Source: a virus. From it: DNA of 24,325 bases. Positions 1,600 to 22,747 of the stretch are shown here, piece by piece. How positions within the stretch are numbered: position 1 is the stretch's first letter; every line of letters starts with the position of its first letter. The position numbers and the translations under genes were made by a program. The notes beneath the pieces are model-generated. The model ran no database searches. It saw nothing but the letters and a program-made list of their open reading frames with translations, and had not been told where the DNA came from. The DNA is taken from positions 1 to 24,325 of the IMG/VR virus record IMGVR_UViG_3300031696_000057; one strand, 5' to 3'.

Positions 1600-1965
1600 T
1601 TACATGCACCAGTATGTTTCCGAAGCCGGTGAACAAGAATTTGGAGTGTTTTTAGCTTCAGTGTACATCTTGCCTGTCATTAAATTCTTGCGTTGAACTT
1701 GCTGTTCAATTTCAGTAGCAAATGTTTCTGCGTCAATAATGTTAAAGTCTTCTTTAACAAGAGCAGTATGCATTGCCTTGTCAGAAGACATACCGTTTGG
1801 AGCAAGAGTTGGAATATAAACAGTGCTATAGCCTAATTCGCCCTTCTTTGCCATTCTAGTAAGAGCTGCCTTAGCTGCTGGCATTGATTTATAACTCTCA
1901 ACAATGTGTGAAGAATATGCTTTAAGAATGTTGGTTGTTTTTTTGTTGTAGATAACGTATAACAT
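1600..1965 (-). CDS. Conserved early phage protein, unknown function
   Basis: A 121-aa product with a clear ribosome-binding site (AGGAAG) before the ATG and a near-consensus early promoter 33 bp further upstream. The C-terminal part (KNLMTGKMYTEAKNTP, then SCSPASETYWCM at the very end) matches a signature I associate with small conserved proteins of T4-like cyanophages and other marine T4-like phages, whose function is unknown. The N-terminus is beta-prone (MLYVIYNKKTTNILK) and the middle includes a Lys/Ala-rich helix. No membrane segment or catalytic motif is visible. Confidence 0.85.
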   Translation of the reverse strand: MLYVIYNKKTTNILKAYSSHIVESYKSMPAAKAALTRMAKKGELGYSTVYIPTLAPNGMSSDKAMHTALVKEDFNIIDAETFATEIEQQVQRKNLMTGKMYTEAKNTPNSCSPASETYWCM

Positions 1966-1997
1966 AGTTGCTTCCTGTTTAATTATTTAATACGTGT

Positions 1998-2026
1998 ATT
2001 ATACACTATTCGAATAGTAAAGTCAA
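1998..2026 (-). promoter_or_regulatory. Strong early sigma70-like promoter (P1) with spacer palindrome
   Basis: Minus strand: TTGACT, 17-bp spacer, TATAAT. The spacer contains a perfect 14-bp palindrome ACTATTCGAATAGT (2005-2018), and the -10 lies within GTGTATAATACAC, itself an inverted repeat around one base. It drives the 121-aa gene, with the expected start near 1991. Confidence 0.85.
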
Positions 2027-2051
2027 GCGGTTTTTAAAATGATTTTGTAGA

Positions 2052-2246
2052 CTACGCCCAGCCTGCCATTGCTTCATAGCGTGTAAGAGGTGCAGGGTTG
2101 TTAACATGATCCATCTTGGCCATCTCGGCATCATGCCATACACACCATTCATTGGTGCCAGAATACCAGTTATCTGAGTACCATTCGTCATACTCTTCTT
2201 CTATAGCAAGGTGGGCTGCGTTTGAGAGTTCTATATTAGTGAGCAT
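2052..2246 (-). CDS. Small acidic, Trp-rich early protein, unknown function
   Basis: A 64-aa product starting MLTNIELSNAAHLAIEEEYD, with a ribosome-binding site (AAGGA) upstream. The open frame reaches 2288, but the upstream ATG there falls inside the -10 box of the promoter, so the start at 2246 is preferred. The protein is acidic, with several Trp and Tyr residues (EWYSDNWYSGTNEWCVWHD), and no recognised domain. It lies directly behind the strongest early promoter in the window, which suggests early, high-level production, perhaps for a host-takeover role; that role is inference only. Confidence 0.78.
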   Translation of the reverse strand: MLTNIELSNAAHLAIEEEYDEWYSDNWYSGTNEWCVWHDAEMAKMDHVNNPAPLTRYEAMAGWA

Positions 2247-2279
2247 AACGTTGCTATTCCTTAGTTGTTTAATACGTGC

Positions 2280-2308
2280 ATTATACACTATCAGAACTGC
2301 AATGTCAA
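2280..2308 (-). promoter_or_regulatory. Consensus early sigma70-like promoter (P2)
   Basis: Minus strand: TTGACA, 17-bp spacer, TATAAT, a perfect consensus. The stretch from ATAGTG in the spacer through the -10 to CACGTATTAAA is shared with promoter P1 (one base differs). It reads into the 64-aa gene and starts just after the 349-aa gene's stop. Confidence 0.9.
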
Positions 2309-2315
2309 GACTTAT

Positions 2316-3365
2316 TTACTTCTTTTTAGTAAAATTTACCTGTGCATATATTTCGTTTGGTTTACTAGGAATGAACGACACTGACGGAGAACCTAAATAT
2401 CCAGCCGAACGTAGTGCAGCAAATTCGTTACCAGAGTTAAAATTGTACACTCGTTTTCCACTAAACCATATAGCCATAATAGAATCAAACCCATCGCGGT
2501 CCTTATACCATTCAAAATTTTGTTTCATGTATTCTATTTCAGCTAGTGCGCCACTCGGATCACGTGCTGCTGCTTTGCCTATAGCAGTAGCCATTGACGT
2601 AGGAAATGACAATGCTATAACCCCTGCCACACACGCCTGTACTGCACTTGGATTGTCTGGAAATAGCATGTGCAATGCCTGTATTGATACGTTTAACGAT
2701 TTTGATTTTACCGATTCGAATGCTTTAAAGAAGAAGTTATCTTGTTCTGGAGTTGTAGTGTATTTTTTAGCGATCTTGCCTAAATGTGCAACTATCGCAT
2801 CTTTCTGTACTGGGCCAACTTCGCCCAATCGGCCACCGGACTCTGAACGCTCTGCTGCTTTAACTTCGACATGCTGAGAGCCTATCATAATGTCGCCTTT
2901 CTCTGCCAATGAAATATCTGGTGCCATAATAGCAAGAGCAAACTCTCCTGGGCCCTTCATTTTTACGCCCCGGCCGAAGTTCGCGTTAGCTGCAAAGAAC
3001 TTTTCTGCAAATGCACTTGAAAATACACTAGCAAATGTGGTTGATGCCATCTGCAATGCCTGTGTATTAACTGCTGTACCATTTTCTAATGATTCTACAA
3101 ATTGTAGTTTCTCAGAGGTACTGCCCGGAATTGTTGCAATTGAACTTAACATGTCGTTAATAACTGTATCAATTTTACCAATATTGGAGTCTTTGGTTGT
3201 TATTGCTAGTGCATTCTCTATTTTCTGTTTTACATTTTTATGCGATAGTACCTGATATATTCTATCAAGTAAATCAAAATCTTCAAGATCTTGCACTTGC
3301 GACACAATCTGAGTTTTTAACTCAGGAACAGTAAGGTCTTCTTTTAAAAATTCAAAATATCTCAT
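2316..3365 (-). CDS. PD-(D/E)XK-like nuclease-type protein with a possible capsid-targeting N-terminus
   Basis: A 349-aa protein. Residues 141-169 carry a pattern typical of PD-(D/E)XK nuclease folds: Glu141 in GPGEFALAI, Asp158 in KGDI, then Glu167-Val-Lys169 in HVEVKA, followed by a Gly-rich GGRLGE. This is a motif reading only. Similar proteins with this GEFALA...KGD...VEVK arrangement occur in marine T4-like phages, usually unnamed. The first residues MRYFEFLKED resemble the capsid-targeting peptides of T4 internal head proteins (MKTYQEFIAE) and include an LxE site of the kind cut by the prohead protease. A GATAAATA late box lies exactly 5 nt before the ATG with no Shine-Dalgarno, so it is probably a late protein although early genes follow it. 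Alternatives include a capsid-unrelated repair or degradation nuclease. Confidence 0.85.
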   Translation of the reverse strand: MRYFEFLKEDLTVPELKTQIVSQVQDLEDFDLLDRIYQVLSHKNVKQKIENALAITTKDSNIGKIDTVINDMLSSIATIPGSTSEKLQFVESLENGTAVNTQALQMASTTFASVFSSAFAEKFFAANANFGRGVKMKGPGEFALAIMAPDISLAEKGDIMIGSQHVEVKAAERSESGGRLGEVGPVQKDAIVAHLGKIAKKYTTTPEQDNFFFKAFESVKSKSLNVSIQALHMLFPDNPSAVQACVAGVIALSFPTSMATAIGKAAARDPSGALAEIEYMKQNFEWYKDRDGFDSIMAIWFSGKRVYNFNSGNEFAALRSAGYLGSPSVSFIPSKPNEIYAQVNFTKKK

Positions 3366-3370
3366 GCTAT

Positions 3371-3378
3371 TATTTATC
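3371..3378 (-). promoter_or_regulatory. Late promoter box abutting the 349-aa gene
   Basis: GATAAATA on the minus strand, ending 5 nt before the ATG. If the start site lies as in T4, transcription would begin at or next to the start codon. Further upstream a TTGACA and TATAAT pair (3403-3428) exists but with only a 14-bp spacer, too short for a normal sigma70 promoter. Confidence 0.65.
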
Positions 3379-3424
3379 GTCGTTAGTTAAATAATATTGG
3401 TTATTATATCCTAGAACTAAAGTG

Positions 3425-4201
3425 TCAATTTGTAGCACGGATGATATCTGTTTCACAACACTGGCTACCTGATTGGATTTCTATTAGCACTGCTGCAGAT
3501 GTACCTATATTTGTTATAATATGCCATGTTTCGTACGGCACTGTTATAATATCACCGGAGTTTATAATTTGCTTTTTTAGTCTATTAACCGTTTGTCCCA
3601 ACTTAACTTCGCACTTGCCATTAATTAACTGCCATGTTTCGTTTCGAATCTCATGTTTTTGCAGACTAATGCCTTTTCCTGGATCTAGCATTAATTCTTT
3701 AACCTTGCAATCAGGGCGGTTGTAAAGTACACTATAGTTGCCCCATCTGCGATCTACAGATTTTCTTATCTGGTTACATACACCAGAGATGATATTCGTG
3801 CTGCTGTTTGCTTTTGTACTACTGCCAGTACCAAACTTAAATGTAACTCCTTTAATTTTCATTTCGGGTATATTACCTTTAGTGCGGTCGCCGCCGTTAG
3901 CAAAGATAATCTCGTCCTTAGGATGCATCTTTTTTACTTGTTTCAATGCATCTATCGCTGTACGATCGGTGTCGTCGAACTCAATTACGCTATCAATATC
4001 ACGAAAGTTCTCCAGTATAACGGCACGTTCATTCACTGATAACACCACATAACCTTTCTTTTGCATTAGCCATGCGTCTGAGTTGACACCCACAATTAGC
4101 TTGCCTGTTTTACCTGCTAGCTTTCTGGCTGCGTTGATGTATGCCACGTGGCCCGAATGCAGTGGGTCAAATCCACCCGTGATTAGTACAATTTTACTCA
4201 T
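3425..4201 (-). CDS. Nucleotidyltransferase-cupin fusion for sugar-nucleotide metabolism
   Basis: A 258-aa two-domain enzyme. Residues 1 to about 145 form a cytidylyltransferase-type nucleotidyltransferase: TGGFDPLHSGH carries the HxGH nucleotide-binding motif (H15-H18), and GGDRTKG at 103-109 is the second conserved block, most like heptose- or glycerol-phosphate nucleotidyltransferases. Residues about 150-258 resemble the cupin domain of type II phosphomannose isomerase (ManC C-terminus): RRWGNYSVLY, LDPGKGISLQKH, NETWQLINGKCEV, VPYETWHIITN, EIQSGS. It may make an activated sugar for surface glycan or DNA/protein modification, perhaps used by the glycosyltransferase at 13151-14221; the substrate is unknown. 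Its ATG overlaps the stop of the 26-aa micro-ORF (ATGA), implying coupling to uvsY expression. The fusion order is unusual: ManC has a GT-A nucleotidyltransferase before the cupin. Confidence 0.9.
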   Translation of the reverse strand: MSKIVLITGGFDPLHSGHVAYINAARKLAGKTGKLIVGVNSDAWLMQKKGYVVLSVNERAVILENFRDIDSVIEFDDTDRTAIDALKQVKKMHPKDEIIFANGGDRTKGNIPEMKIKGVTFKFGTGSSTKANSSTNIISGVCNQIRKSVDRRWGNYSVLYNRPDCKVKELMLDPGKGISLQKHEIRNETWQLINGKCEVKLGQTVNRLKKQIINSGDIITVPYETWHIITNIGTSAAVLIEIQSGSQCCETDIIRATN

Positions 4202-4278
4202 GTAATAGATTCTTCTTGTATATATTGTACTGGTACTTCTCGAGCAATTCCACCTATCATTATTTCATTTGGCATCAT
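4198..4278 (-). CDS. 26-aa micro-ORF tiled between uvsY and the nucleotidyltransferase gene
   Basis: Starts MMPNEIMIGG and ends QEESIT. Its first ATG overlaps the uvsY stop (ATGA) and its own TGA overlaps the ATG of the next gene (ATGA), so it fills the gap exactly with four-base overlaps on both sides. That geometry is typical of coupled phage genes and is the main support. No domain or membrane segment is visible and no function is assigned. It could alternatively be a pure coupling peptide. Confidence 0.55.
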   Translation of the reverse strand: MMPNEIMIGGIAREVPVQYIQEESIT

Positions 4279-4727
4279 ATTGATACATCTTCTAGACCGG
4301 CTGCTCGTATCCTGGTTATATGCCCAACCATAAAGTTCTTGGCATCAATTCCTTTCATTATTCCCAGGTAACGATTTCGCACAAACGCAACTGCATTTTT
4401 CAGTTCTTCGTAATCTACTACTTCCTTTTCGCCATCCGCGTACTTGTCGGCGTCGCGACTGGACAATACTTTGTTATATGATTCTAAATAGTTACGAAAA
4501 TGTTTGCGGTGTACTTTTCGTAATTGTATTTCCATGTATTCCAGGACTGCTTCTATTTCTTGTAGTTGGTTAAATCGGTACTCCAATATGCCAGGTAAAG
4601 CAGCAACCTGTTTTTCAAGGTTACCGCTAATTACACATTCTAGCTTTGCAGATACAAGTTGCTTATCGTAATACTCGATAAAATCGGGCAAGTTGGAAAT
4701 ATCCTGTACAACCTTATTGTACCACAT
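4275..4727 (-). CDS. uvsY: UvsY-like recombination mediator
   Basis: A 150-aa helical, charged protein matching the size and layout of UvsY (T4 UvsY is 137 aa), which loads the UvsX recombinase onto gp32-coated single-stranded DNA. Seen: long amphipathic helices, the segment RNYLESYNKVLSSRDADKY, and the C-terminal FMVGHITRIRAAGLEDVSI, which corresponds to the conserved I-x-N/H-I-x-x-x-R-A-x-G end of marine T4-type UvsY. Its location in the gp32-uvsX-uvsY cluster strengthens the call. The ATG lies 2 nt after the stop of the 76-aa gene, with GGGA as a ribosome-binding site inside that gene, implying coupling. Confidence 0.85.
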   Translation of the reverse strand: MWYNKVVQDISNLPDFIEYYDKQLVSAKLECVISGNLEKQVAALPGILEYRFNQLQEIEAVLEYMEIQLRKVHRKHFRNYLESYNKVLSSRDADKYADGEKEVVDYEELKNAVAFVRNRYLGIMKGIDAKNFMVGHITRIRAAGLEDVSI

Positions 4728-4729
4728 TG

Positions 4730-4960
4730 TTATTCCCAGTCAGTGTTTTCGTCGTCGTCTTCCTCTTCTTCTAGATATTCAGAAGCCGCTTCTTCCAGAT
4801 GTGTATCTGATTTTACTAGTCGCTGAAATTCAGAATTAGGTAATTCCATATCAACAATCAATGGTATAAGATGATCTGCTGCTTCCTGCTTTTCTTTTTC
4901 TGGTATATACGCTTTGAGTACGTCCCATATTTCAATAAGTGTTTCACTTTCTAACATCAT
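4730..4960 (-). CDS. Small acidic conserved protein between uvsX and uvsY
   Basis: A 76-aa protein with a helical N-terminal half (LIEIWDVLKAYIPEKEKQEAA, DHLIPLIVDMEL) and a very acidic tail (EYLEEEEDDDENTDWE). It sits between uvsX (33 bp upstream) and uvsY (2 bp downstream), so it likely takes part in, or is co-expressed with, recombination-replication functions. The acidic tail recalls that of single-strand binding proteins but no homology is claimed. Start: tandem ATGATG with GGAG 10-13 nt upstream. Function unknown. Confidence 0.82.
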   Translation of the reverse strand: MMLESETLIEIWDVLKAYIPEKEKQEAADHLIPLIVDMELPNSEFQRLVKSDTHLEEAASEYLEEEEDDDENTDWE

Positions 4961-4993
4961 TTTTGGTTTGCTCCAGTGTCTATACCATAGTTA

Positions 4994-6094
4994 TCATTGT
5001 TGTGCTGTTTCTTCGTTTACATCATCTTCCGGTAATGCTACAACAGCGTCTGCTTCTTTAAGATCTGATATGTTAAGTCCCTTTTCCATGATATCAGACA
5101 TTACAATATCTAATACACCGTCTTGGTTTGCTTCCCACTTCTTCTTGAACATCTTGTGCTCAATTCCTTTGGCATCATTGTAAATGTAACTGTTGCCCGA
5201 CTTACTTAACATGCTCTTTGCTTCAAACATATCAAATAATCCACTGTATGGATTCATGCCTTCTTCGTATGGTATCTTAACTTGCACACCTTCAAACGGC
5301 TTTGCATATCGTGTCTTCATTACCTTACAGGCCGAGCGAATACCTTGTACTGTAGCCACTTTGTTTCCGTCGGTATCTTCTTTTAACTTCAACTTTCGCA
5401 TAGCAATAACAATAGAGCTAGCATAGATAAAACCCTGGCCGCCACTAATCTTGTCATCTGGATCAAACATGTCTTGCGAAGCATATGTGTGATTTGTTGC
5501 CACAATGCCAACGTTGTACTGTCCAATCATGTTTACAGTGTTGCGTACTAATGATGTTAGAGCCTTGGGCTTACGTCCCATGTCACCCTTCATATCGCCT
5601 TTTTCAAACTGGTTGACATCTGTTGGTGTCATCATCATGCCCAAGCTGTCCAGCACAAATAGTACCTTGCCTCGATCATCTTCTTCCATTGCTTTATATT
5701 CTTTCATGAACTCTGAAATAGTTTTAGCAACATCGTCTATCATTGCCATGTTCAATTTCAGCAATTTATCTTCGTCTGTTGATACGCCCAATGCGTGTAA
5801 CCATTTCTCATCTAGTGCGTTCTCTGAATCAATCAGTACAACAAATATGCCTTGCTCTTGTGCTGACTTTACAATGTTTGCAGATGCAAAGTATGACTTA
5901 CCTGATCCAGATTCACCAGCGAATACTGTTACTTTACCAAGTGGGATTCCTTTGTTAAAATCTGCACTTATTAGGTAGTTGAGTGCGTAGTTGCCTGTGC
6001 TAACCCAATCTGTTGGATCATGAAAGCCTACTGATAATCCTGGTACAGCCTTTGATATCGATTTACGAAATTTACTCGCGTCAAATGGTTTCAT
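4994..6094 (-). CDS. uvsX: UvsX/RecA-like recombinase
   Basis: A 366-aa RecA-family strand-exchange ATPase, close to the T4 UvsX length (391 aa). Seen: Walker A GESGSGKS at 60-67, acidic LIDSENALDEKW at 88-98, Walker B LFVLDSLGMM at 145-154, and the loop region from NHTYASQ to ISGGQG at about 201-221, as in phage recombinases. It promotes homologous recombination, recombination-dependent replication and repair, working with gp32 and UvsY encoded on either side. The ATG is preceded by an ACGAGA weak ribosome-binding site, and the 5' untranslated region carries two strong hairpins (6117-6135, 6145-6175), which may control its translation or message stability. Confidence 0.96.
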   Translation of the reverse strand: MKPFDASKFRKSISKAVPGLSVGFHDPTDWVSTGNYALNYLISADFNKGIPLGKVTVFAGESGSGKSYFASANIVKSAQEQGIFVVLIDSENALDEKWLHALGVSTDEDKLLKLNMAMIDDVAKTISEFMKEYKAMEEDDRGKVLFVLDSLGMMMTPTDVNQFEKGDMKGDMGRKPKALTSLVRNTVNMIGQYNVGIVATNHTYASQDMFDPDDKISGGQGFIYASSIVIAMRKLKLKEDTDGNKVATVQGIRSACKVMKTRYAKPFEGVQVKIPYEEGMNPYSGLFDMFEAKSMLSKSGNSYIYNDAKGIEHKMFKKKWEANQDGVLDIVMSDIMEKGLNISDLKEADAVVALPEDDVNEETAQQ

Positions 6095-6116
6095 TTATTA
6101 TTTCTCGTAGTGTGGT

Positions 6117-6135
6117 ACTTGTACACTGTACAAGT
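6117..6135 (-). promoter_or_regulatory. Second hairpin in the uvsX leader
   Basis: A perfect 19-nt inverted repeat, ACTTGTACA-one base-TGTACAAGT, about 23 nt before the uvsX ATG. It shares the CTTGTAC/GTACAAG arms with the neighbouring hairpin, so arms of the two can pair with each other. It could also be a protein-binding site on DNA. Confidence 0.6.
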
Positions 6136-6144
6136 TGACAATAT

Positions 6145-6175
6145 GCACCCGACTTGTACTGTACAAGCCGAGTGC
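6145..6175 (-). promoter_or_regulatory. Strong RNA hairpin after gp32
   Basis: In the minus-strand transcript, 14-nt arms pair fully around a CAG loop, with two G-U wobbles. On the plus strand those positions would be C-A mismatches, so the structure fits the minus RNA. It starts 6 nt after the gp32 stop. No U-tract follows, so it is not a standard rho-independent terminator; an attenuator, processing site or stabiliser is more likely. Confidence 0.65.
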
Positions 6176-6181
6176 AATACT

Positions 6182-7174
6182 TTATGCTTTGTTGCGGTTA
6201 CGAATCTTGTCTAAGATTGCTTGGGCTTTGTCGTTTCCGCCTTGATCTGCAACTGCCTGCTCAACAACAGGGGTTGATATAGATGGCTGAGGAGTAACTG
6301 CAGATTCTGCTACTGTTACGGCTGCTTCCATTGAAGTGTCTGCTGGTGCGGTTGGTGCTGTAGCTGCTGGTGTGGTTGGGGCAGCTAAACCATAAGGCTT
6401 ATAAAACGCAGACCACTTTTCAGCATCATACGGTTCGCCGTCAACACTTGCTTCAAACATTTCTTTGATAATAGCAACAGTTGCTTCATCAGGCTTCTTT
6501 GGCAAGAATGATTTCAGATCAAACAAGCCGTGCTCGTTGATAGCATCATTTTCTTCTGGTGTAAGCGCCGACTCTTTACGTGCGTACTTGCTGGTTGCGT
6601 AACTTGCGTACTGTCCACCAGAAGTCTTGTTGACTGTGAAGTCCAGACCCGCAATGTAATCAGTTGGCAATTCTTCCAATTCAGGATCCATGAGTGCCGA
6701 TTTAGCGATGTCAAAGATCTGTGGTGTAAGAATGAAACGCCTGATTGGGTTTTCTGGAGAATCTTCGTCTTTCATTGGGTTTTCGCGTACAAAACCCTGC
6801 ATGAAGTAAGAACGCTTCTTCCAGTATTTACGTGCTGTATCTTCCAATGAAGGATCTTTAAACCAGGGTCTAATTTCTGATAGTACAGGACAAGAACCTA
6901 CTCCGTCCCACATTTCCATACAAGGAACTTTTACAGTACAAGGCTTGCTCATTGGGTCGCCTTTGATACCCGTGAATGATAAATTAATTAATAATCGTTC
7001 TATCCAAAAGAACGTATTTGTCTCGTCTGCATCCGGTAAGAAACGTATCTTGGTAGATTCGCCCTCTTTAATATTCCAGTGCGGAAAGATAGTGTTATCA
7101 CCCGATGAATAATTGCTTGATCTTTGGTCGTCTTGTGATTGTAGTTTTGCGCGGATTTCTGCTAATGTAGCCAT
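6182..7174 (-). CDS. gp32: Single-stranded DNA-binding protein gp32
   Basis: A 330-aa protein matching gp32 layout: basic/helical N-terminus (MATLAEIRAKLQ) for cooperative self-association, a core with FPHWNIKEGEST-IRFLPD and a Cys cluster (Cys79, Cys85, Cys95 in PCTVKVPC and GSCPV) where T4 gp32 binds zinc, then RSYFMQGFVRENP, and a low-complexity Ala/Pro/Thr linker (about 265-315). The T4 zinc-ligand His is not evident, so zinc binding may differ. Unlike T4 gp32, the extreme C-terminus is not acidic but ends in KIRNRNKA. A good ribosome-binding site (AGAGGTAA) precedes the ATG. It coats single-stranded DNA in replication and recombination with UvsX and UvsY encoded next door. Confidence 0.93.
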   Translation of the reverse strand: MATLAEIRAKLQSQDDQRSSNYSSGDNTIFPHWNIKEGESTKIRFLPDADETNTFFWIERLLINLSFTGIKGDPMSKPCTVKVPCMEMWDGVGSCPVLSEIRPWFKDPSLEDTARKYWKKRSYFMQGFVRENPMKDEDSPENPIRRFILTPQIFDIAKSALMDPELEELPTDYIAGLDFTVNKTSGGQYASYATSKYARKESALTPEENDAINEHGLFDLKSFLPKKPDEATVAIIKEMFEASVDGEPYDAEKWSAFYKPYGLAAPTTPAATAPTAPADTSMEAAVTVAESAVTPQPSISTPVVEQAVADQGGNDKAQAILDKIRNRNKA

Positions 7175-7389
7175 GTTGTATTACCTCTAAGTTTTCATGT
7201 TTACCTGATGAACCCAATACTCCCATTGAGCCCAACTATAATAAGTGTTTCTTATTATGTAGTTATTTATCTGTTTCAACTTGTACCAGCTTTTTATTTA
7301 CCAATATTTGTTAACTGCCACTATGTCCATTTGTGTCTGTTTAGTAATATTAGTTATGCTACAAATAATAAGGTGAGGGTTTTCTTATC
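7175..7389 (-). promoter_or_regulatory. gp32 upstream region with promoter-like elements
   Basis: Gene-free on both strands as far as I can judge. Minus-strand elements include TTGAAA with AATAAG 17 bp downstream, an overlapping GATAAATA late-type box at 7264-7271, and an inverted repeat ATAATAAG-5 nt-CTTATTAT (7238-7258). Together these suggest multi-stage control of gp32. Each element alone is weak. Confidence 0.4.
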
Positions 7390-7418
7390 AAAAAAAAGGG
7401 CGCCCTTAGGACACCCTC
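7390..7418 (-). terminator. Rho-independent terminator after the 557-aa gene
   Basis: Minus strand: GGGTGTCC-TAAG-GGCGCCC forms a GC-rich stem of about 8 bp (with G-U pairs) around a short loop, followed at once by a run of seven or eight T residues. It lies about 18 bp after the stop of the 557-aa gene and separates the late block from gp32. Confidence 0.88.
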
Positions 7419-7435
7419 GTTGAACTGAGTTGCTG

Positions 7436-9109
7436 TTATAGCCCAGCTAGTCTTATTATATCATTAACAGCTTCTTTAAGGCTATTGTCCTGATTCTGTT
7501 CATTGTGTCGTTTTAATGCTGCTTTAGCTGCTGTTTTAGTACAGTCTTTACCATCCTTCTCTAGTGCCTTGACCATTGCTTCTGGCGTACCCTTGCCAGC
7601 AACGTTCAGATAATCCTTAGGTGTTGCTTTTGACAGTACAACATCTTCATTCACTTCAGATTCTAATATTGCAGGAAACGACACAGCCTCTGTAACATCC
7701 TTAGGGTTGCCATCGTTATCCATTACTTCTCCTTTGCCGATGTCAATACGTGTTTTATGATTAGCAATGCGTATTTCTAATTTGTCGGCATAATCATTGT
7801 TGCCATTTGCGTCTGCTTGTTGGTGCAGTGATATTAGTTGTTGTAACTGTGGACTATCGTCGTATGCCGACTGTGCCATATGGTTAGACACTCCCCATAC
7901 TCCGGCAAGCATTGCAATACCTGCCAACACACCTTTGATACCCTCATCTAATTCAGATTCCGGGTTATTTTTGGCATGACAGTCGCAATACTCACATTCT
8001 GGACCACAGTGGCATTGACTAACAGGCTTGCCGCAGCATGCATCTGCGCACATTTCCTCTGTAGCATCTTCCTGTACCGGCATTGCTGTTGTTTCATTTG
8101 CCCATTCTTCAAATTCTGATATCTGCATTGGTGATTTTATATTCATTGTTGGTTTCTGCGGTCTCATTTTTTTCACATGGACTCTATTAACTGTCTCCAT
8201 GGCTGATTCTATGTTGTTGTTCATTTGCTTCTTGGTAAAACGTTCTTTCATACTACTAGCCATTTCGTCTGTATATTCCACTGATTCCGATGCTATATAA
8301 TTTTCTGTGTATTTTTTGTAACCACGGTTACCAGCTAACTGTCCCAGGCTAGTACGACATTCTGCGTAATGTGCTCTGGCTGCTTCTATCATTTCCATAG
8401 TAGTCTTGTCCTCAGACACTGTATTACGGTTGGCAGAAATAAATGGACGTAGTGCAGAAATGTCATATACCATTTCTGTTATATGCATGCCCATGTCGTC
8501 GTGTGGCTTGCCGCCGTTGCCGACGTGTTGGCTCATTGCTCTGGCACCTGGCAAACTTGTGAATGGCATTAGAAATCGTTCGCCGGCGCATGTTTCAATA
8601 AAAACCGATTCTATTTTACGCGATCGTGCGCCACGTACTTCTGGATCAATTTTCTGATTGTGTCGCACAATAATCTTACTTGGTCCTTTGTTCTGGTAAC
8701 TGCTACGTTTGGAACCGTACATTTTGCTCTCTTGCACGCCATTCCTGCTTACCGTAGCTTGTATATCGTTAACAGACAGTGCCTTTTTGCTAATGTCGTG
8801 TGTGTCAAATGTATATAGATTGGACATTGCTGTCTTGCGCATGTCCTGTAGGAATTTATACCAGGTCGATAACTGCGAGCCCTTGAGTGTAGTAGATATG
8901 TCTTTGCTATAATAAATCTTCATTATTTGATCTATTAGACTGATTGTAACATTACCGTGCTCTGCTGCGTCTGCGTAAGTAAAGTTAAAAAATGCGGCGG
9001 CACTTGGATCTTGTGTTGATTTACCGTTGATAGTTCCTAATGTTATTTGACTGAAACGTGAACGTAATTTGTCAAATACTTGTTCGCCTATTTTATTCTG
9101 AATTTCCAT
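7436..9109 (-). CDS. Conserved marine T4-like phage protein with Cys cluster, unknown function
   Basis: A 557-aa protein. The N-terminal 260 residues carry signatures I associate with a family conserved downstream of gp17 in cyanophages and other marine T4-like phages: RSRFSQITLGTINGKSTQDP, NVTISLIDQ-MKIYYSK, EVRGARSRKIESVFIE, GERFLMPFTSLPGARAM and HVGNGG. Function is not known to me; a virion or head role is plausible. Distinctive here are eight cysteines at 355-378 (CADACCGKP, CHCGPECEYCDCH), suggestive of metal binding, followed by a short hydrophobic segment (GVLAGIAMLAGVWGV, about 394-408). The C-terminus ends with small repeated-looking basic helices. MEIQNKIGEQ at the start includes an IxE that could be a prohead-protease site. 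A CATAAATA box lies 5 nt before the ATG and no Shine-Dalgarno is visible. Confidence 0.88.
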   Translation of the reverse strand: MEIQNKIGEQVFDKLRSRFSQITLGTINGKSTQDPSAAAFFNFTYADAAEHGNVTISLIDQIMKIYYSKDISTTLKGSQLSTWYKFLQDMRKTAMSNLYTFDTHDISKKALSVNDIQATVSRNGVQESKMYGSKRSSYQNKGPSKIIVRHNQKIDPEVRGARSRKIESVFIETCAGERFLMPFTSLPGARAMSQHVGNGGKPHDDMGMHITEMVYDISALRPFISANRNTVSEDKTTMEMIEAARAHYAECRTSLGQLAGNRGYKKYTENYIASESVEYTDEMASSMKERFTKKQMNNNIESAMETVNRVHVKKMRPQKPTMNIKSPMQISEFEEWANETTAMPVQEDATEEMCADACCGKPVSQCHCGPECEYCDCHAKNNPESELDEGIKGVLAGIAMLAGVWGVSNHMAQSAYDDSPQLQQLISLHQQADANGNNDYADKLEIRIANHKTRIDIGKGEVMDNDGNPKDVTEAVSFPAILESEVNEDVVLSKATPKDYLNVAGKGTPEAMVKALEKDGKDCTKTAAKAALKRHNEQNQDNSLKEAVNDIIRLAGL

Positions 9110-9114
9110 AAGTG

Positions 9115-9122
9115 TATTTATG
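9115..9122 (-). promoter_or_regulatory. Late promoter box abutting the 557-aa gene
   Basis: CATAAATA, a one-base variant of the T4 late box, ends 5 nt before the ATG. It lies between the gp17 stop and the 557-aa start, where the gap is only 13 bp. Confidence 0.6.
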
Positions 9123-10688
9123 CTAACTCATTATAAACGGCAGTGGCATTATATCAGCATCCAACTTGTCGCGCAATGTAGCATCTAGTGTTGGGTCGTA
9201 TGACTGTAACGCCTGTGCCATTCTTACTATCAATAACATTGACATCACAAGATCGTCTGTTTCTCCTTGCTTGGCAGCATAAGACGCACCAGATGATACA
9301 AATACTTTTAATTCGGATATCAGTGGCCCACTGTTAATTTTTAATCTACGAGACTCTATTAGTGACTTTCCTTTAGCACATGCTGTTAATTTAGAGCTGT
9401 TAGTTGTGTTGAATCCGCGTCGCATACTGCGGCCACCTGCGCGTGTTTTGGGTTCTGATAAAAATATACCACTAATATTTTCTTCGCCTATCTCTTGTAT
9501 AGACACTAGTGCTGCTTCGCCGAGTGTGTTATTCTCCACACTGTAGTATACAGATTCAGTTGAACCAGTTATGTCCACAATGTACGACGTTATTCTGCTT
9601 AACAAGTTGATCTGCTTGGATATATCTGTCTTGTTATGCATCCATTCTGCTACTTGTTCCATATGAGGTAATTCAAATACTTGTATTGCTGCGTTGTCAC
9701 CTCCTGTTCCTAGGCTAGGATCTAAACCTACTAGATATGTATGGTTAGGAGATGGTTTCTTGAACCAGCGTACTTGGCCTTGTTTTTCGATTGGTTCTGC
9801 TTTTTCTAACACTGTTAATGTTAGTGCATCTATAAGTGTTTCATCAAAACTTATAAATTCGCAATTATGCTCTCGGCGAAAACGCTCATCTCCAATTCGG
9901 CTACGTTCTTCGGTTGCCCATTTCTCATCTCGTTCGGGGTGCTCATGCCAATATGCCTTAAACGCTCTGAATCCGTTGATTCCTAGGTGTGTTGTATTAC
10001 CGAATGCATCCATGCACTTATTAGCACCGTGCCATATTTGTGCGAACTGATCTTCGTCGTTGTTGGGTGTGCTTGTTATTATTGCTCTGCCGCCTGTTGC
10101 TAGTGTAGGAGATATTGATGTCCAAAATTCCTTAGCTATGTTAGGGCGCACAAATGCAAATTCGTCCACGTATAATAATGTTAGTGACAGTCCACGTCCT
10201 GTGCTTTCTGTTGTTGCTTGTGATATAATTCTAGAGCCATTGTCAAATTCTATACTGGACTTGTTGTAGCTTGTTACACCTGCTCGTATGTGATCAGGAC
10301 AGGATTCATATGCGTATCGTACTCGTTGCATAATTTCCAATGCTCCGGCAAACTTGTGTGCTGCTATCAGGATAGTAACGTCTGAATTGAACATAGCAAA
10401 CCATAATAGGTACCCTGCGGCTGTTGCTGTCTTGCCCAATTGCCTACCCAATAAATTTATACTGTAACGATTTGAATGGTAAGTGTCTATTAGCCCGTGC
10501 TGATATGGATATGGCGCATACAACAACTTACCCTGTAATGGGTGCTGGATATAAAAATAGTGTGTCATAAAATACATAGGACCAGTTGATTGGTCCATGC
10601 AACTCACAAATTCTTTTATTTGGGTTGGTGTGTACTGTTGTTTTTGGTTCGGACGTTTTACTAAAACGCCTTCTAAGATATTAGCCAT
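9123..10688 (-). CDS. gp17: Terminase large subunit gp17
   Basis: The DNA-packaging motor: an N-terminal ATPase translocates DNA into the prohead and a C-terminal RNase H-like nuclease cuts concatemers. Seen in the 521-aa product: Walker A GRQLGKT at 81-87, Walker B LLYVDE at 171-176 with catalytic Glu, coupling motif ITSTPN at about 204-209, and nuclease Asp in LVGLDPSLGTGGD with Asp323. Length is a little below T4 gp17 (610 aa). The frame extends nine codons to an ATG at 10715, but the internal start MANILEGV is preferred because a late box lies 5 nt before it and the extension would lie inside and upstream of that box. It follows gp16 by three small genes, an arrangement looser than in T4, where 16 and 17 are adjacent. 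Confidence 0.96.
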   Translation of the reverse strand: MANILEGVLVKRPNQKQQYTPTQIKEFVSCMDQSTGPMYFMTHYFYIQHPLQGKLLYAPYPYQHGLIDTYHSNRYSINLLGRQLGKTATAAGYLLWFAMFNSDVTILIAAHKFAGALEIMQRVRYAYESCPDHIRAGVTSYNKSSIEFDNGSRIISQATTESTGRGLSLTLLYVDEFAFVRPNIAKEFWTSISPTLATGGRAIITSTPNNDEDQFAQIWHGANKCMDAFGNTTHLGINGFRAFKAYWHEHPERDEKWATEERSRIGDERFRREHNCEFISFDETLIDALTLTVLEKAEPIEKQGQVRWFKKPSPNHTYLVGLDPSLGTGGDNAAIQVFELPHMEQVAEWMHNKTDISKQINLLSRITSYIVDITGSTESVYYSVENNTLGEAALVSIQEIGEENISGIFLSEPKTRAGGRSMRRGFNTTNSSKLTACAKGKSLIESRRLKINSGPLISELKVFVSSGASYAAKQGETDDLVMSMLLIVRMAQALQSYDPTLDATLRDKLDADIMPLPFIMS

Positions 10689-10693
10689 ACTGT

Positions 10694-10701
10694 TATTTAT
10701 T
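10694..10701 (-). promoter_or_regulatory. Late promoter box abutting gp17
   Basis: AATAAATA followed by ACAGT and the gp17 ATG. No Shine-Dalgarno lies between or upstream, so the transcript from this box would start at or beside the ATG. Confidence 0.62.
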
Positions 10702-10736
10702 AATAGAAATGCCACTTTGAAAAATATAGTAGCGAA

Positions 10737-10970
10737 TTACATTCCTAGGCAGTGGCCGCCTCTTTGCCCAGCCGTAAACGGTCCTAAGGCAAAATCGTTA
10801 ATACATAAAGTTACAATGTCAAGAACGCCAGGTTTCCTTGTGCCATTCTTGAACTTCACAAGCCCCGTTTTGTTCGTCCTGGTCCATCTTGCCGGTCCAA
10901 CTGTCCTTCTTTCACGATGTTGCTCGTGGTACGGATGTGCTGATGTAGTTGGAAATTTAACGCGGAAAGA
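10737..10970 (-). pseudogene. Start-less 77-codon open frame, possible broken or frameshifted small gene
   Basis: This covers most of the 10689-11003 gap. The minus-strand frame is open for 77 codons (SFRVKFPTTSAHPYHEQ..., TNKTGLVKFKNGTRKPG, ending AGQRGGHCLGM) and has an ordinary, hydrophilic composition, but it contains no ATG start until its last residue. A perfect late promoter (11001-11008) lies just upstream, and an ATG at 10986 in another frame (MSR then amber) sits where the gene's start would be expected. A gene broken by a frameshift, a recoded or non-AUG-initiated gene, a sequencing error, or chance open frame are all possible. The plus-strand frame across the region has no ribosome-binding site. 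Confidence 0.3.
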
Positions 10971-11000
10971 TCAGCTATCTTGACATTATAATGTTGTGCC

Positions 11001-11008
11001 TATTTATA
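11001..11008 (-). promoter_or_regulatory. Perfect T4-type late promoter
   Basis: TATAAATA on the minus strand, overlapping the stop codon of the 185-aa gene. The first annotated gene downstream is gp17 about 310 bp away; the start-less frame at 10737-10970 lies between. Confidence 0.8.
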
Positions 11009-11561
11009 TCGCTGTAGCAACGCCTGCTGATTTCTCAATAGATGAGCTATCCATAATAAATTGCAGATCTTCGGCTAAATCATGTGCATAAGCATCATGG
11101 TCTCTGCGCTCACCACCGTTATGGTCTGAAAATTCGCCCATTATACAATCAACTGCACCCATCATGTTGCCGGCGAGCAGTAATTCAATTGCTTCTTTGA
11201 ACATTGTACGAGTAACTGTTGAACTAAGGTCGCTGCCCTGGTCTTTGATTGTCTCGTCTACCATTTTTGCAAGTTCCTTGATGTTGGACCATTGGTCTGC
11301 ACCTTCGGTTAGCTTGAGCTTTTTAAATGCTCGTGTTAACCGTGCCTGTTCTTTGATAGTGGCATCTGCGCGTGGATTGTCGCCATCTTTTTGCTTGTAC
11401 TGCGACGATTTAACTTTGTGTAAGTCGTTGCCAAACCCTTGCTGTGTAGCAGAGTCCAATACTTGCTCGTTTGGTGTGTTGCTGTACGTGTTCTTGGGCG
11501 TATCAACTTTGACAGGTTCTACTGCCTCCATTAAGCGTTTAAAGTCGTCGTGGTTATTCAT
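11004..11561 (-). CDS. Conserved-type phage protein, unknown function
   Basis: A 185-aa hydrophilic protein, largely helical in appearance in its second half (for example MFKEAIELLLAGNMMGAVDC, then DHDAYAHDLAEDLQFIMDS). The N-terminus MNNHDDFKRLMEAVEP contains an LxE site (after LME) of the kind cut by T4-like prohead proteases, so a prohead-associated role is possible but unproven. The ATG is one base after the stop of the acidic-repeat gene, with GAGAGGA as ribosome-binding site, so the two are translationally coupled. It lies in the gp16-gp17 interval. I do not recognise its family. Confidence 0.82.
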   Translation of the reverse strand: MNNHDDFKRLMEAVEPVKVDTPKNTYSNTPNEQVLDSATQQGFGNDLHKVKSSQYKQKDGDNPRADATIKEQARLTRAFKKLKLTEGADQWSNIKELAKMVDETIKDQGSDLSSTVTRTMFKEAIELLLAGNMMGAVDCIMGEFSDHNGGERRDHDAYAHDLAEDLQFIMDSSSIEKSAGVATAI

Positions 11562-11562
11562 T

Positions 11563-12006
11563 TTAGTAGTTTTCCTCTCCTATGCCCCAAGGATCTGTTC
11601 CTAGTTCGTCTTCTGCTTCGTCTTCTGCTAGTTCGTCTTCTGCTTCGTCTTCTGCTAGTTCGTCTTCTGCTAGTTCGTCTTCTGCTTCGTCTTCTGCTAG
11701 TTCGTCTTCTGCTTCGTCTTCTACAGACTCGTCGACCTCAGCATCTTCGTCCTCTAACCATAACCAATCATTACTTCTTATCAGGTCGGCTACATCATAT
11801 TCTGACATATATGATAGTGCAGCATATGCAACATCAGAGTCGGATACCATTCCTTCTCGCATTGCATCAATGAGTTTGTTGGTCATTTCACGAGCATCGC
11901 GCTCGGTCAACTCTGTTTCGGTAACTGTTTCTTTACCAGTGTATGGTGTGAGAAGTTGTGCTTCTATTTGGTTTAGACTCTCTAAGAGTGTTTTTATTTG
12001 GGCCAT
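11563..12006 (-). CDS. Small protein with acidic tandem-repeat tail
   Basis: A 147-aa protein. Residues 1 to about 85 form a helical domain (MAQIKTLLESLNQIEAQLL, RDAREMTNKLIDAMREGM, DVAYAALSYMSEYDVADLI). The rest is extremely acidic, with tandem AEDE/AEDEL units, ending WGIGEENY. Such a polyanionic tail may mimic DNA or bind basic partners; that is inference. It lies between the 192-aa and 185-aa genes with one-base gaps on both sides and has AAGGA upstream of the ATG. The repeat DNA is nearly pure purine/pyrimidine-biased on each strand and prone to slippage. Function unknown. Confidence 0.85.
   Translation of the reverse strand: MAQIKTLLESLNQIEAQLLTPYTGKETVTETELTERDAREMTNKLIDAMREGMVSDSDVAYAALSYMSEYDVADLIRSNDWLWLEDEDAEVDESVEDEAEDELAEDEAEDELAEDELAEDEAEDELAEDEAEDELGTDPWGIGEENY
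11601..11722 (-). repeat. Coding tandem repeat (12/15-bp units, 27-bp higher-order unit)
   Basis: The plus strand alternates ttcgtcttctgc and ttcgtcttctgctag units with almost no divergence, encoding AEDE and AEDEL on the minus strand. The unit order is 27-bp pairs interrupted once by a lone 15-bp unit. Near identity implies recent expansion or active slippage. Confidence 0.92.
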
Positions 12007-12007
12007 G

Positions 12008-12586
12008 TTAAATATCCTTTGCTGTTGGCAGTTTGTTTTGATTAGTCATTGGGCTTAACGTGCCCGGAGCTAAATCATTAGTTGTTACTGCTTTTTCTGT
12101 ATTAGCGCCTGTTATATCAAACTGGCGTGTTTCGATGCTGTCTAAGAAATCTGTAATGAACTCGTTGCCATAAACTTTTTCCTGTAATTGCATATCTTCT
12201 AGCTCTGTGTCTAGTAAGGCAGTTCCTGCTTCATACATGCCTATTTGCGGTGTGCGGTAAGTTTCTTGTGCTGCTGAGTGTACAACAAACGCACTTTTGT
12301 CGAGACCACAACGTTCTACTAATAATGTTTCAATCATCTCGGCAATTGCTGGATAACCTAGCTCCATTTCAATGACGTTTATTTCAACTGGTCCAAGTTT
12401 TGGAAAATTAACTTCGTCTTCCTGTATTGGCAAGCTCTTTGGCTTAGTGATGCTCTCTAATTGATATGCGTCTAGTGCTTGTTCTATTCTTGCGAATATT
12501 TTATCTGAGCATTCAAACGCCATACGCATCTTAAATGCGTATACCTTCTTGTTGTCTCTGAGATGGCTTACGAATGATTTTATCAT
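12008..12586 (-). CDS. Conserved marine T4-like phage protein, unknown function
   Basis: A 192-aa protein. The N-terminus (MIKSFVSHLRDNKKVYAFKM, then RIEQALDAYQLESITKPKSLPIQ) and the following INVIEMELGYPA resemble a small family often seen near terminase genes in marine T4-like phages, with two alpha-beta units like a ferredoxin-type fold; no function is known to me. The second half is acidic and probably extended (TALLDTELEDMQLQ). AGGAA precedes the ATG, and a GATAAATA late box lies 23 bp upstream within the end of gp16. The stop is one base before the next gene's ATG. Confidence 0.85.
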   Translation of the reverse strand: MIKSFVSHLRDNKKVYAFKMRMAFECSDKIFARIEQALDAYQLESITKPKSLPIQEDEVNFPKLGPVEINVIEMELGYPAIAEMIETLLVERCGLDKSAFVVHSAAQETYRTPQIGMYEAGTALLDTELEDMQLQEKVYGNEFITDFLDSIETRQFDITGANTEKAVTTNDLAPGTLSPMTNQNKLPTAKDI

Positions 12587-12608
12587 ATTGTTATTCCTAT
12601 TGTTATTC

Positions 12609-13127
12609 TTATTTATCAGTTTTATTGACTTCTTGCTGTTCTGCGAACAACGCTAGTAACGCATTGCGATCCAGTTCCGTAGCTTCGCCGGTCGGCAATC
12701 CATTGCCGTCGTCACGGGCGTTTTTTAGTATTTGTGTATCCAATCTGGCCTTCTGTATTTGTAGTGCCACAATTTTTAATTTCTTGTCTAGTTTGGAATT
12801 CTTGGCAGATAGTGCATGTCCTAGCATAGAGGCTGCTGTGCTGAATATTTCCGAACCAAAACGTGGCTCTACATTCATGCCTAGTTCCATTAAATCACTA
12901 AAACTGTTTTCTGCTAATTTTGCTAAATGATCCAACTCGGCATCACTAGTGTTGATGTCACTAACCGAAGGCAGTGCAGCATCTATCTTGTCTATGGCGC
13001 TATCCAGGACTTTTATTTGTTGTTGGTCTTTTTCTAATTTAGCTGGATCAAACGGTTCTTGCTCAGGCTCAACAACTTCTTCTGTCATGTCGGCCAGATC
13101 AAATAAATCTTCTAATTTTTTAGTCAT
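12609..13127 (-). CDS. gp16: Terminase small subunit gp16
   Basis: A 172-aa acidic, helical protein similar in size and layout to T4 gp16 (164 aa): an acidic N-terminal segment (MTKKLEDLFDLADMTEE), a central helical core (FSTAASMLGHALSAKNSKLDKKL, KIVALQIQKARLDTQ) expected to form the oligomeric ring, and a short C-terminal tail. It recognises DNA and stimulates the gp17 ATPase. The call rests on this layout and the genomic setting between structural and gp17 genes. Unlike T4, three small genes separate it from gp17. A CTAAATA late-type box ends 5 nt before the ATG and no Shine-Dalgarno is evident. Confidence 0.8.
   Translation of the reverse strand: MTKKLEDLFDLADMTEEVVEPEQEPFDPAKLEKDQQQIKVLDSAIDKIDAALPSVSDINTSDAELDHLAKLAENSFSDLMELGMNVEPRFGSEIFSTAASMLGHALSAKNSKLDKKLKIVALQIQKARLDTQILKNARDDGNGLPTGEATELDRNALLALFAEQQEVNKTDK
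12610..12617 (-). promoter_or_regulatory. Late promoter box for the 192-aa gene group
   Basis: GATAAATA overlapping the last codons (Asp-Lys-stop) of gp16, 23 bp before the 192-aa ATG. It could drive the 192-, 147- and 185-aa genes, which are separated by only one base each. Confidence 0.55.
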
Positions 13128-13132
13128 ACTAT

Positions 13133-13140
13133 TATTTAGT
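13133..13140 (-). promoter_or_regulatory. Late-type box abutting gp16
   Basis: ACTAAATA ends 5 nt (ATAGT) before the gp16 ATG, the same spacing as at gp17 and the 557-aa and 349-aa genes. The box differs from TATAAATA at two positions. Confidence 0.5.
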
Positions 13141-16797: not shown

Positions 16798-16805
16798 TAT
16801 TTATC
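16798..16805 (-). promoter_or_regulatory. Late promoter box for gp19
   Basis: GATAAATA on the minus strand, 32 bp before the gp19 ATG, leaving room for a normal leader with its AGAGGA site. Confidence 0.6.
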
Positions 16806-17410: not shown

Positions 17411-17418
17411 TATTTATT
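17411..17418 (-). promoter_or_regulatory. Late promoter box for the 166-aa gene
   Basis: AATAAATA on the minus strand, 30 bp before the ATG and about 10 bp after the sheath terminator, so it restarts transcription after that stop. Confidence 0.55.
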
Positions 17419-20709: not shown

Positions 20710-20717
20710 TATTTATA
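20710..20717 (-). promoter_or_regulatory. Perfect late promoter for the tail sheath
   Basis: TATAAATA on the minus strand 33 bp before the sheath ATG, with a GAGGA ribosome-binding site between. It is divergent to the plus-strand late box at 20765-20772, only about 47 bp away. Confidence 0.88.
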
Positions 20718-20764: not shown

Positions 20765-20772
20765 TATAAATA
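20765..20772 (+). promoter_or_regulatory. Perfect late promoter for the plus-strand zinc-finger gene
   Basis: TATAAATA on the plus strand, 8 nt before the ATG of the HNH-like gene. No Shine-Dalgarno is present, so the mRNA leader would be at most a few nucleotides. Confidence 0.8.
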
Positions 20773-20780
20773 ACAGTACA

Positions 20781-21119
20781 ATGAATAGACCTATTTGCGA
20801 ATTATGCACTATACGACCCGCTGCCGTCAATTATCACAAGAATGGTAAGATATATTATCGATCTCTTTGCACAAGATGCATTAATCCATACAAGGTAATT
20901 GTCCCAGGGTGGATGAAATCAGGCTATAAACTAAAAGCCACTTGTGATTTGTGCAACTTTAAACGTAACCATCCCGAGCAAATGACGGTTTTTCACGTTG
21001 ACGGCGATATGAGGAATAATAAATGGCCTAACCTAAGATCCATATGTGCCAATTGTGCCATTAGCATTTCCATCAAAGGCATAGGATGGAAACAGGATAC
21101 TATACATCCAGATTTTTAA
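20781..21119 (+). CDS. HNH-like double zinc-ribbon protein (only plus-strand gene)
   Basis: A 112-aa protein with four Cys-x2-Cys pairs: CELC, CTRC, CDLC and CANC, giving two zinc-ribbon units. The second unit (VFHVDGDMRNNKWPNL, then CANC) has the HNH shape (H-x-D-G...N...NL...C-x2-C), but the final His of a classical HNH is missing (CANCA), so cleavage activity is uncertain. Related conserved proteins occur in marine T4-like phages, usually as unannotated or HNH-like. It could bind DNA as a homing-type or structural nuclease or be a degenerate one. It is the only gene on this strand, has its own perfect late promoter, and its stop codon shares TTAA with the dNMP kinase stop on the other strand. 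Confidence 0.85.
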   Translation: MNRPICELCTIRPAAVNYHKNGKIYYRSLCTRCINPYKVIVPGWMKSGYKLKATCDLCNFKRNHPEQMTVFHVDGDMRNNKWPNLRSICANCAISISIKGIGWKQDTIHPDF

Positions 21120-22739: not shown

Positions 22740-22747
22740 TATTTATC
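22740..22747 (-). promoter_or_regulatory. Late promoter box for the 250-aa gene
   Basis: GATAAATA on the minus strand, 21 bp before the ATG, at the stop of the 104-aa gene. Confidence 0.5.

Follow-up and report, generated by a model that had tools for sequence, protein, structure and literature searches.

The window analysed here is the whole 24,325-nucleotide stretch of the viral record IMGVR_UViG_3300031696_000057 (IMG/VR). It contains, on the minus strand, TerL (gp17), a virion structural protein gene of 557 aa, a 349-aa gene of unknown function and a 172-aa gene, together with tail tube, tail sheath and head-tail adaptor genes, and on the plus strand an HNH endonuclease gene. The first-pass annotation had noted that four of these genes carry a late box exactly 5 nt before the ATG without a Shine-Dalgarno (SD), and had proposed leaderless late mRNAs as a second mode of late translation. 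The features are summarized in the table.

Features of the window related to late boxes and predicted leaderless genes
Feature	Coordinates	Strand	Description
Late box of the 349-aa gene	3371..3376	-	GATAAATA; 5 nt before ATG
349-aa gene	2316..3365	-	Unknown function; predicted leaderless
Late box of the 557-aa gene	9115..9120	-	CATAAATA; 5 nt before ATG, in the gap after the TerL stop
557-aa gene	7436..9109	-	Virion structural protein (phrog_13484); predicted leaderless
Late box of TerL	10694..10699	-	AATAAATA; 5 nt before ATG
TerL (gp17), 521 aa	9123..10688	-	Predicted leaderless; ATG 10688 rather than GTG 10715
Late box of the 172-aa gene	13133..13138	-	ACTAAATA; 5 nt before ATG
172-aa gene	12609..13127	-	phrog_16202, unknown function; predicted leaderless
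Late box of the HNH gene	20767..20772	+	8 nt before ATG; predicted 3-nt leader ACA-AUG
HNH endonuclease gene	20781..21119	+	phrog_10822, E 3.5e-5; predicted near-leaderless
Late box of the tail tube gene	16798..16803	-	32 nt before the start (16765); SD-led
Late box of the tail sheath gene	20710..20715	-	33 nt before the start (20676); SD-led
Late box of the 192-aa gene	12610..12615	-	23 nt before the start (12586); SD-led
Late box of the 166-aa gene	17411..17416	-	30 nt before the start (17380); SD-led
Late box of head-tail adaptor Ad2	22740..22745	-	21 nt before the start (22718); SD-led
154-aa gene, start	14685		Box upstream with SD-like sequence
121-aa gene, start	1965		Box upstream with SD-like sequence

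Late boxes five nucleotides before the start codon

We first examined whether the spacing could be confirmed. TAAATA-N5-ATG occurred exactly four times in the window, in every case at an ORF start. A dinucleotide shuffle of the whole window gave an expectation of 0.79 occurrences anywhere, and a shuffle of the 60 nt upstream of candidate ATGs gave an expectation of 0.12, with a maximum of 1 in 60 shuffles. None of the four genes had an SD of 4 nt or more, although this absence is partly geometric, because a box at -11..-6 occupies the SD position. In contrast, the tail tube, sheath, 192-aa, 166-aa, Ad2, 154-aa and 121-aa genes had boxes 18-33 nt upstream together with an SD-like AGGA/GAGG. The observation of the first-pass annotation, including the 8-nt gap of the HNH gene, was thus confirmed. 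However, its name "gp16" for the 172-aa gene is unsupported, as the only profile match of this gene was to a family of unknown function.

To investigate whether the spacing is a general feature, we conducted an unbiased scan of hexamers by position upstream of genes in the window and its relatives (the window clade). TAAATA ending 5 nt before ATG was the most position-enriched hexamer (63 vs 5.45 expected, p 6e-44), ranking ahead of AGGAGA, whereas the TAAATA peak was at 28 in T4 and at 20-24 in P-SSM2. By shuffling, we obtained 64 observed vs 4.3 expected sites in the clade, 20 vs 2.3 in SAR11/OM43 phages, and 1 vs 1.0 in T4. The spacing-5 arrangement covered 124 distinct proteins in 59 families, and the start codon was almost exclusively ATG (65 ATG, 2 GTG and 0 TTG), as expected for leaderless initiation, although most called starts are predictions. 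An SD was present in 1 of 65 cases at spacing 5, against 109 of 148 for boxes 13-32 nt away (Fisher 9e-26). The genes are not strictly structural, as DNA ligase, radical SAM, a kinase/ATPase and HNH genes also had the close box.

Conservation and distribution among relatives

The first-pass annotation had stated that its reading would fail if the 5-nt spacing were not kept in related phages, and the reading passed this test. Spacing 5 was kept in relatives for TerL, the 557-aa gene and the 349-aa gene, the last in three loci. Homologues of the 557-aa gene had either a box at 4-5 nt or a box at 16-25 nt. A search of viral contigs with the 172-aa protein found nothing, but relatives were found by tblastn in the loci compared, and these homologues keep a TAAATA or TAAGTA-type box at 5 nt in several loci. 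Homologues of the HNH gene had spacings of 5 and 4. Where spacing 5 was lost, the gene often had an SD, or an SD plus a box 16-28 nt away, and the TerL, 557-aa and gp2 genes kept or switched mode cleanly; the same gene can switch mode between relatives.

The arrangement also occurred in the cultivated SAR11/OM43 phages HTVC008M, Mosig and Melnitz. In HTVC008M, 12 of 197 depositor-annotated starts were at spacing 5, no box was found at 9-15 nt, and 12 of 13 boxes from 16 to 38 nt upstream were accompanied by an SD. It is not a general property of T4-like phages, because T4, KVP40, Syn9, phiM12, Cr30, PAU, S-SSM4 and P-SSM2 showed no clear excess over controls, and the sampled part of Phosso lacked it.

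Interpretation of the close late boxes

Taken together, the best explanation, in which we have fairly high confidence, is that the four boxes are T4-type late promoters, recognized by a gp55-like sigma factor and placed so that transcription starts on the A of the start codon. The late mRNAs would then be leaderless and initiated by ribosomes that recognize the 5'-terminal AUG, as a second mode beside SD-led late mRNAs from boxes about 16-33 nt upstream in the same genome. No 5' end has been measured in any of these phages, and initiation at box+6, the absence of 5'-end processing and the translation of 5'-AUG mRNAs are inferred. The T4 late box (TATAAATA) spans -13 to -6 (PMC2988020), which would put +1 on the A of AUG. 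Independently, SD-led late boxes in the same genomes showed A at box+6 in 73 of 113 cases and a pyrimidine-purine peak at box+5/+6, and T/C preceded the ATG in 100 of 108 spacing-5 sites. The TAAATA core was preceded by A or C in 94 of 108 sites, and no other upstream hexamer besides SD-like ones was among the top hits, consistent with a late box without a -35 element, although the first T of TATAAATA was not conserved in the clade. A sigma-70 -10 reading was rejected, as on inspection the hexamer had no good match to TATAAT at the right spacing and T at -13 was not preferred. A gp55-type sigma was found in one relative (G004), PA5oct, Phosso and HTVC008M, with gp45 annotated in HTVC008M and a putative late promoter transcription factor; no gp55 match was found in several relative contigs, which are fragments. 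A likely consequence, by inference, is that such a gene is poorly translated from read-through mRNA, so that its expression depends on its own late promoter.

Among the alternatives, it remains possible, though unlikely, that transcription starts 1-3 nt before the AUG or at mixed positions, giving very short leaders that are still SD-independent. Spacing 4 was found in 23 clade sites, and in one relative (G005) it was as frequent as spacing 5 (14 vs 11); a few genes, such as the HNH gene, had spacings of 7-8, so the start position may wobble or some leaders may be 1-3 nt. However, the peak at 5 is sharp, with T/C just before the ATG, and spacing-8 sites such as those of the HNH gene and of gp2 in some of the loci compared (L250-L256) still place an A at box+6. 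We consider it less likely still that the box makes a 5'-AUG RNA while the protein is made mostly from read-through polycistronic mRNA by translational coupling, with the promoter mainly serving downstream genes. Late genes are tightly packed, and the 557-aa gene starts 14 nt after the TerL stop, but coupling does not explain the exact spacing in 59 families, nor why genes without the close box often have an SD instead.

A fixed distance to AUG would also fit an A/U-rich S1 or ribosome site in the mRNA. This reading is very improbable, because the hexamer, mostly with A or C before it, is the same as in the T4-type late box, and it also occurs 16-33 nt upstream together with an SD, where T4 has its promoters. 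Although TAAATA as such was not enriched in the window (26 vs 30 expected), chance in an A/T-rich genome, or one ancestral copy counted many times, was rejected by the shuffles, other spacings, the hexamer scan, the occurrence in 59 unrelated families and the presence of relatives with a GC content of 47%.

A more speculative possibility, which we regard as unlikely, is that these phages change translation initiation late in infection so that leaderless phage mRNAs are favored, helped by phage-encoded initiation proteins. bS21 was found in three relatives (G001, G003 and G005) and in HTVC008M, Mosig and Melnitz, but was absent from T4, KVP40, Syn9 and P-SSM2, and G003 has an IF3 homologue whose IF3_C match stops short of the domain end. 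However, bS21 as the explanation is only suggestive, since PA5oct and Phosso have it with few or no such genes, and IF3 is not supported, since Phosso and Atu_ph07 have IF3 but no spacing-5 starts in the 40-kb stretches sampled.

Compared with T4 late promoters, the boxes described here share the sequence, the lack of another conserved element, the inferred box-to-start geometry, the association with late structural genes and the gp55-type sigma genes in some relatives; in T4, however, spacing 5 is not above chance and boxes mostly lie 13-34 nt before SD-led starts. Leaderless middle and late transcripts are known from Thermus phage phiYS40 (PMC3594737), an unrelated phage using host sigma-A in a host phylum where leaderless genes are themselves common. 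In Deinococcus-Thermus, leaderless genes have a -10 motif TANNNT 6-7 bp before the ORF (PMC12340547), which is a host sigma-A motif, whereas here a phage late sigma motif lies at 5 bp. The Rak2-like jumbo phages CBB and GAP32 have the same predicted late motif, ATAAATA, before structural genes (PMC5259590); we found no description of a leaderless placement there, and the related phage 121Q showed no spacing-5 start in the 24 kb sampled. In the literature consulted, we found no report of leaderless mRNAs from T4-type late promoters.

T4 late transcription is a textbook system in which late mRNAs carry leaders with an SD. A systematic leaderless late class in marine T4-superfamily phages, including cultivated SAR11 and OM43 phages, would make leaderless initiation a main route for virion proteins in these phages. 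It gives a simple rule for correcting start codons and promoters in their genomes, and it makes the long-standing question of how leaderless mRNAs compete in SD-using bacteria testable with isolates.

Late boxes at gene starts

The 24,325-base window, an IMG/VR virus record, is from a T4-superfamily myophage. Profile matches in PHROGs include TerL, tail tube, tail sheath, head closure, head-tail adaptor Ad2, dNMP kinase, UvsX, UvsY and the gp32-type single-strand binding protein. TerL is 56-79% identical to 80 IMG/VR contigs, and its nearest named relatives are the jumbo phages PA5oct (55%), Sinorhizobium phage Phosso (53%) and Atu_ph07.

We found TAAATA-N5-ATG four times in the window, in each case at a gene start, whereas shuffling the upstream 60-mers gave 0.12. 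None of the four has a Shine-Dalgarno (SD), although a box at -11 to -6 leaves little room for one, so that SD absence is not fully independent evidence. In contrast, the late boxes located 18-33 nt upstream of genes in the window come with an SD-like AGGA or GAGG. The first-pass annotation had named the 172-aa gene gp16, but this identity is not shown; the gene matches a family of unknown function.

Features and their coordinates in the window and in related sequences
Sequence	Position (strand)	Feature	Distance from late box to ATG (nt)
Window	ATG 3365 (-)	349-aa gene	5
Window	7436-9109, ATG 9109 (-)	557-aa structural protein	5
Window	ATG 10688 (-)	TerL	5
Window	ATG 13127 (-)	172-aa gene, phrog_16202, unknown function	5
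Window	20781 (+)	HNH gene	8
Window	3425-4201 (-)	258-aa protein with a heptose-phosphate adenylyltransferase-like N-terminus and a cysteine dioxygenase-like C-terminus
L121 (locus of relative contig G005)	around 6530-6554	Divergent gene pair sharing overlapping, opposite late boxes within about 25 bp	5 (both)
HTVC008M	18916-18943	Divergent gene pair sharing overlapping, opposite late boxes within about 25 bp	5 (both)
L234 (locus of relative contig G003, near 112 kb)	1711-2283 (-)	IF3 homologue (IF3_N and IF3_C, the latter matched to position 64 of 86)

To assess whether this arrangement could arise by chance or from one ancestral copy, we pooled the window with three close relatives and seven larger relative contigs. 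At gene starts, spacing 5 was observed 65 times, against a mean of 5.9 for other spacings, and the shuffle control gave 64 against 4.3. An unbiased scan of all hexamers at all positions ranked TAAATA at spacing 5 first (63 vs 5.45, p 6e-44), ahead of the Shine-Dalgarno hexamers. The sites fall in 124 distinct proteins and 59 blastp families, so a single ancestral copy does not account for them, and relatives with a GC content of 47% and few TAAATA boxes still have the arrangement. TTG was never found at spacing 5, and GTG only twice. One relative, G005 (loci L121-L125, 90 kb), has spacing 4 (14 sites) as often as spacing 5 (11 sites), mostly with T/C before the ATG, and its start site may sit one base closer to the box.

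Distribution among phages and changes of mode between homologues

The arrangement also occurs in cultivated phages of streamlined marine bacteria, namely HTVC008M and Mosig (SAR11) and Melnitz (OM43), with 20 sites against 2.3 in shuffled sequences. For HTVC008M, we used the start codons annotated by the depositors. Out of 197 starts, twelve have the box at exactly 5 nt, none has a box 9 to 15 nt away, and twelve of thirteen boxes from 16 to 38 nt upstream come with an SD. This empty zone is what two exclusive modes predict: either no leader, or a leader long enough for an SD. The spacing-5 genes include gp2, head closure gp4, tail tube cap, gp53, gp3, the tape measure, a baseplate wedge protein and curli CsgF, many of which are low-copy virion parts. 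In contrast, T4 (1 site, as expected by chance), KVP40, Syn9, phiM12, Phosso and Atu_ph07 (40-50 kb sampled for the last three) showed no excess, and P-SSM2 and PA5oct showed no clear one. The favored spacing is 28 in T4 and 20-24 in P-SSM2.

Interestingly, the same gene can be found in either mode. TerL homologues have the box at 5 and usually no SD, or an SD without a near box (for example loci L031, L038 and L052), or an SD plus a box about 28 nt away (L034 and L048), while some have neither. The 557-aa gene family keeps its own late box, but at 4-5 nt without an SD in one set of relatives and at 16-25 nt, usually with an SD-like stretch, in the other; the protein is 631-1018 aa in most relatives with spacing 5, and the window copy is shorter. 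The 349-aa gene keeps spacing 5 in loci L001, L236 and L237, and in pelagiphage gp2 the spacing is kept down to 36% protein identity. Several homologues of the 172-aa gene (in L004, L009, L013, L015 and L018) have TAAGTA-type variants at exactly 5 nt before the ATG, whereas others have an SD-like stretch or neither. This suggests a wider box consensus, and counts based on TAAATA are thus lower bounds.

Predicted transcription start and a proposed leaderless mode

We next examined why transcription should start at the start codon. A review of T4 late transcription places the first base of the 8-bp box at -13 (PMC2988020), which makes the box -13 to -6 and the sixth base after it +1. The SD-led late boxes of the window clade, where no ATG is near, provide an independent indication. 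In these, box+6 is A in 73 of 113, against 30-52 at the five preceding positions, and the pyrimidine-purine step peaks there (55; neighboring steps mostly 18-39). T4 and the marine phages show the same peak. At the spacing-5 sites, the base before the ATG is T or C in 100 of 108, which is the usual initiator context, while in spacing-5 hits without an ORF it is 21 of 31. The few spacing-8 sites seen at the HNH gene and in gp2 of loci L250-L256 still place an A at box+6 and would give 3-nt leaders.

The promoter appears to be of the T4 late type. Leaderless late phage mRNAs are known in Thermus phage phiYS40 (PMC3594737), an unrelated phage in a phylum where leaderless genes with the -10 element 6-7 bp from the ORF are common (PMC12340547). 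An ATAAATA late motif was previously predicted in Rak2-like jumbo phages, without a leaderless reading in the text we examined (PMC5259590). We found no description of leaderless T4-type late mRNAs in literature searches that did not cover most subscription papers. Hence, leaderless late phage mRNAs and the late motif are each already known, and what differs here is the proposed leaderless use of a T4-type late promoter.

Ribosomal protein bS21, which contacts the SD/anti-SD helix, is encoded by most large spacing-5 genomes, namely the relative contigs G001, G003 and G005 together with HTVC008M, Mosig and Melnitz, but not by T4, KVP40, Syn9 or P-SSM2. However, PA5oct and Phosso also have it with few or no spacing-5 genes, so the link is only suggestive. 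Phage bS21 has been tied to late-stage phage replication (PMC9723584). In G003, the IF3 homologue lies next to bS21, ClpX-like, ClpS and Hsp20 genes, and IF3 is also present in Phosso and Atu_ph07. Near the tail tube genes (loci L082 and L084), Phosso carries an annotated Ro-like RNA-binding protein among tail genes, and Atu_ph07 has an RNA-binding protein at the same place.

Genes for gp55-type sigma are present in the relative G004 (E 6.7e-85 to phrog_12791), PA5oct, Phosso and HTVC008M. Although neither start sites nor translation have been measured, the best reading of our data is that a gp55-like late sigma directs host RNA polymerase to these boxes, that RNA starts at the A of AUG, and that ribosomes initiate on the 5'-terminal AUG. 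Because a gene built this way lacks an SD on read-through RNA, we infer that its translation should depend on its own late promoter.
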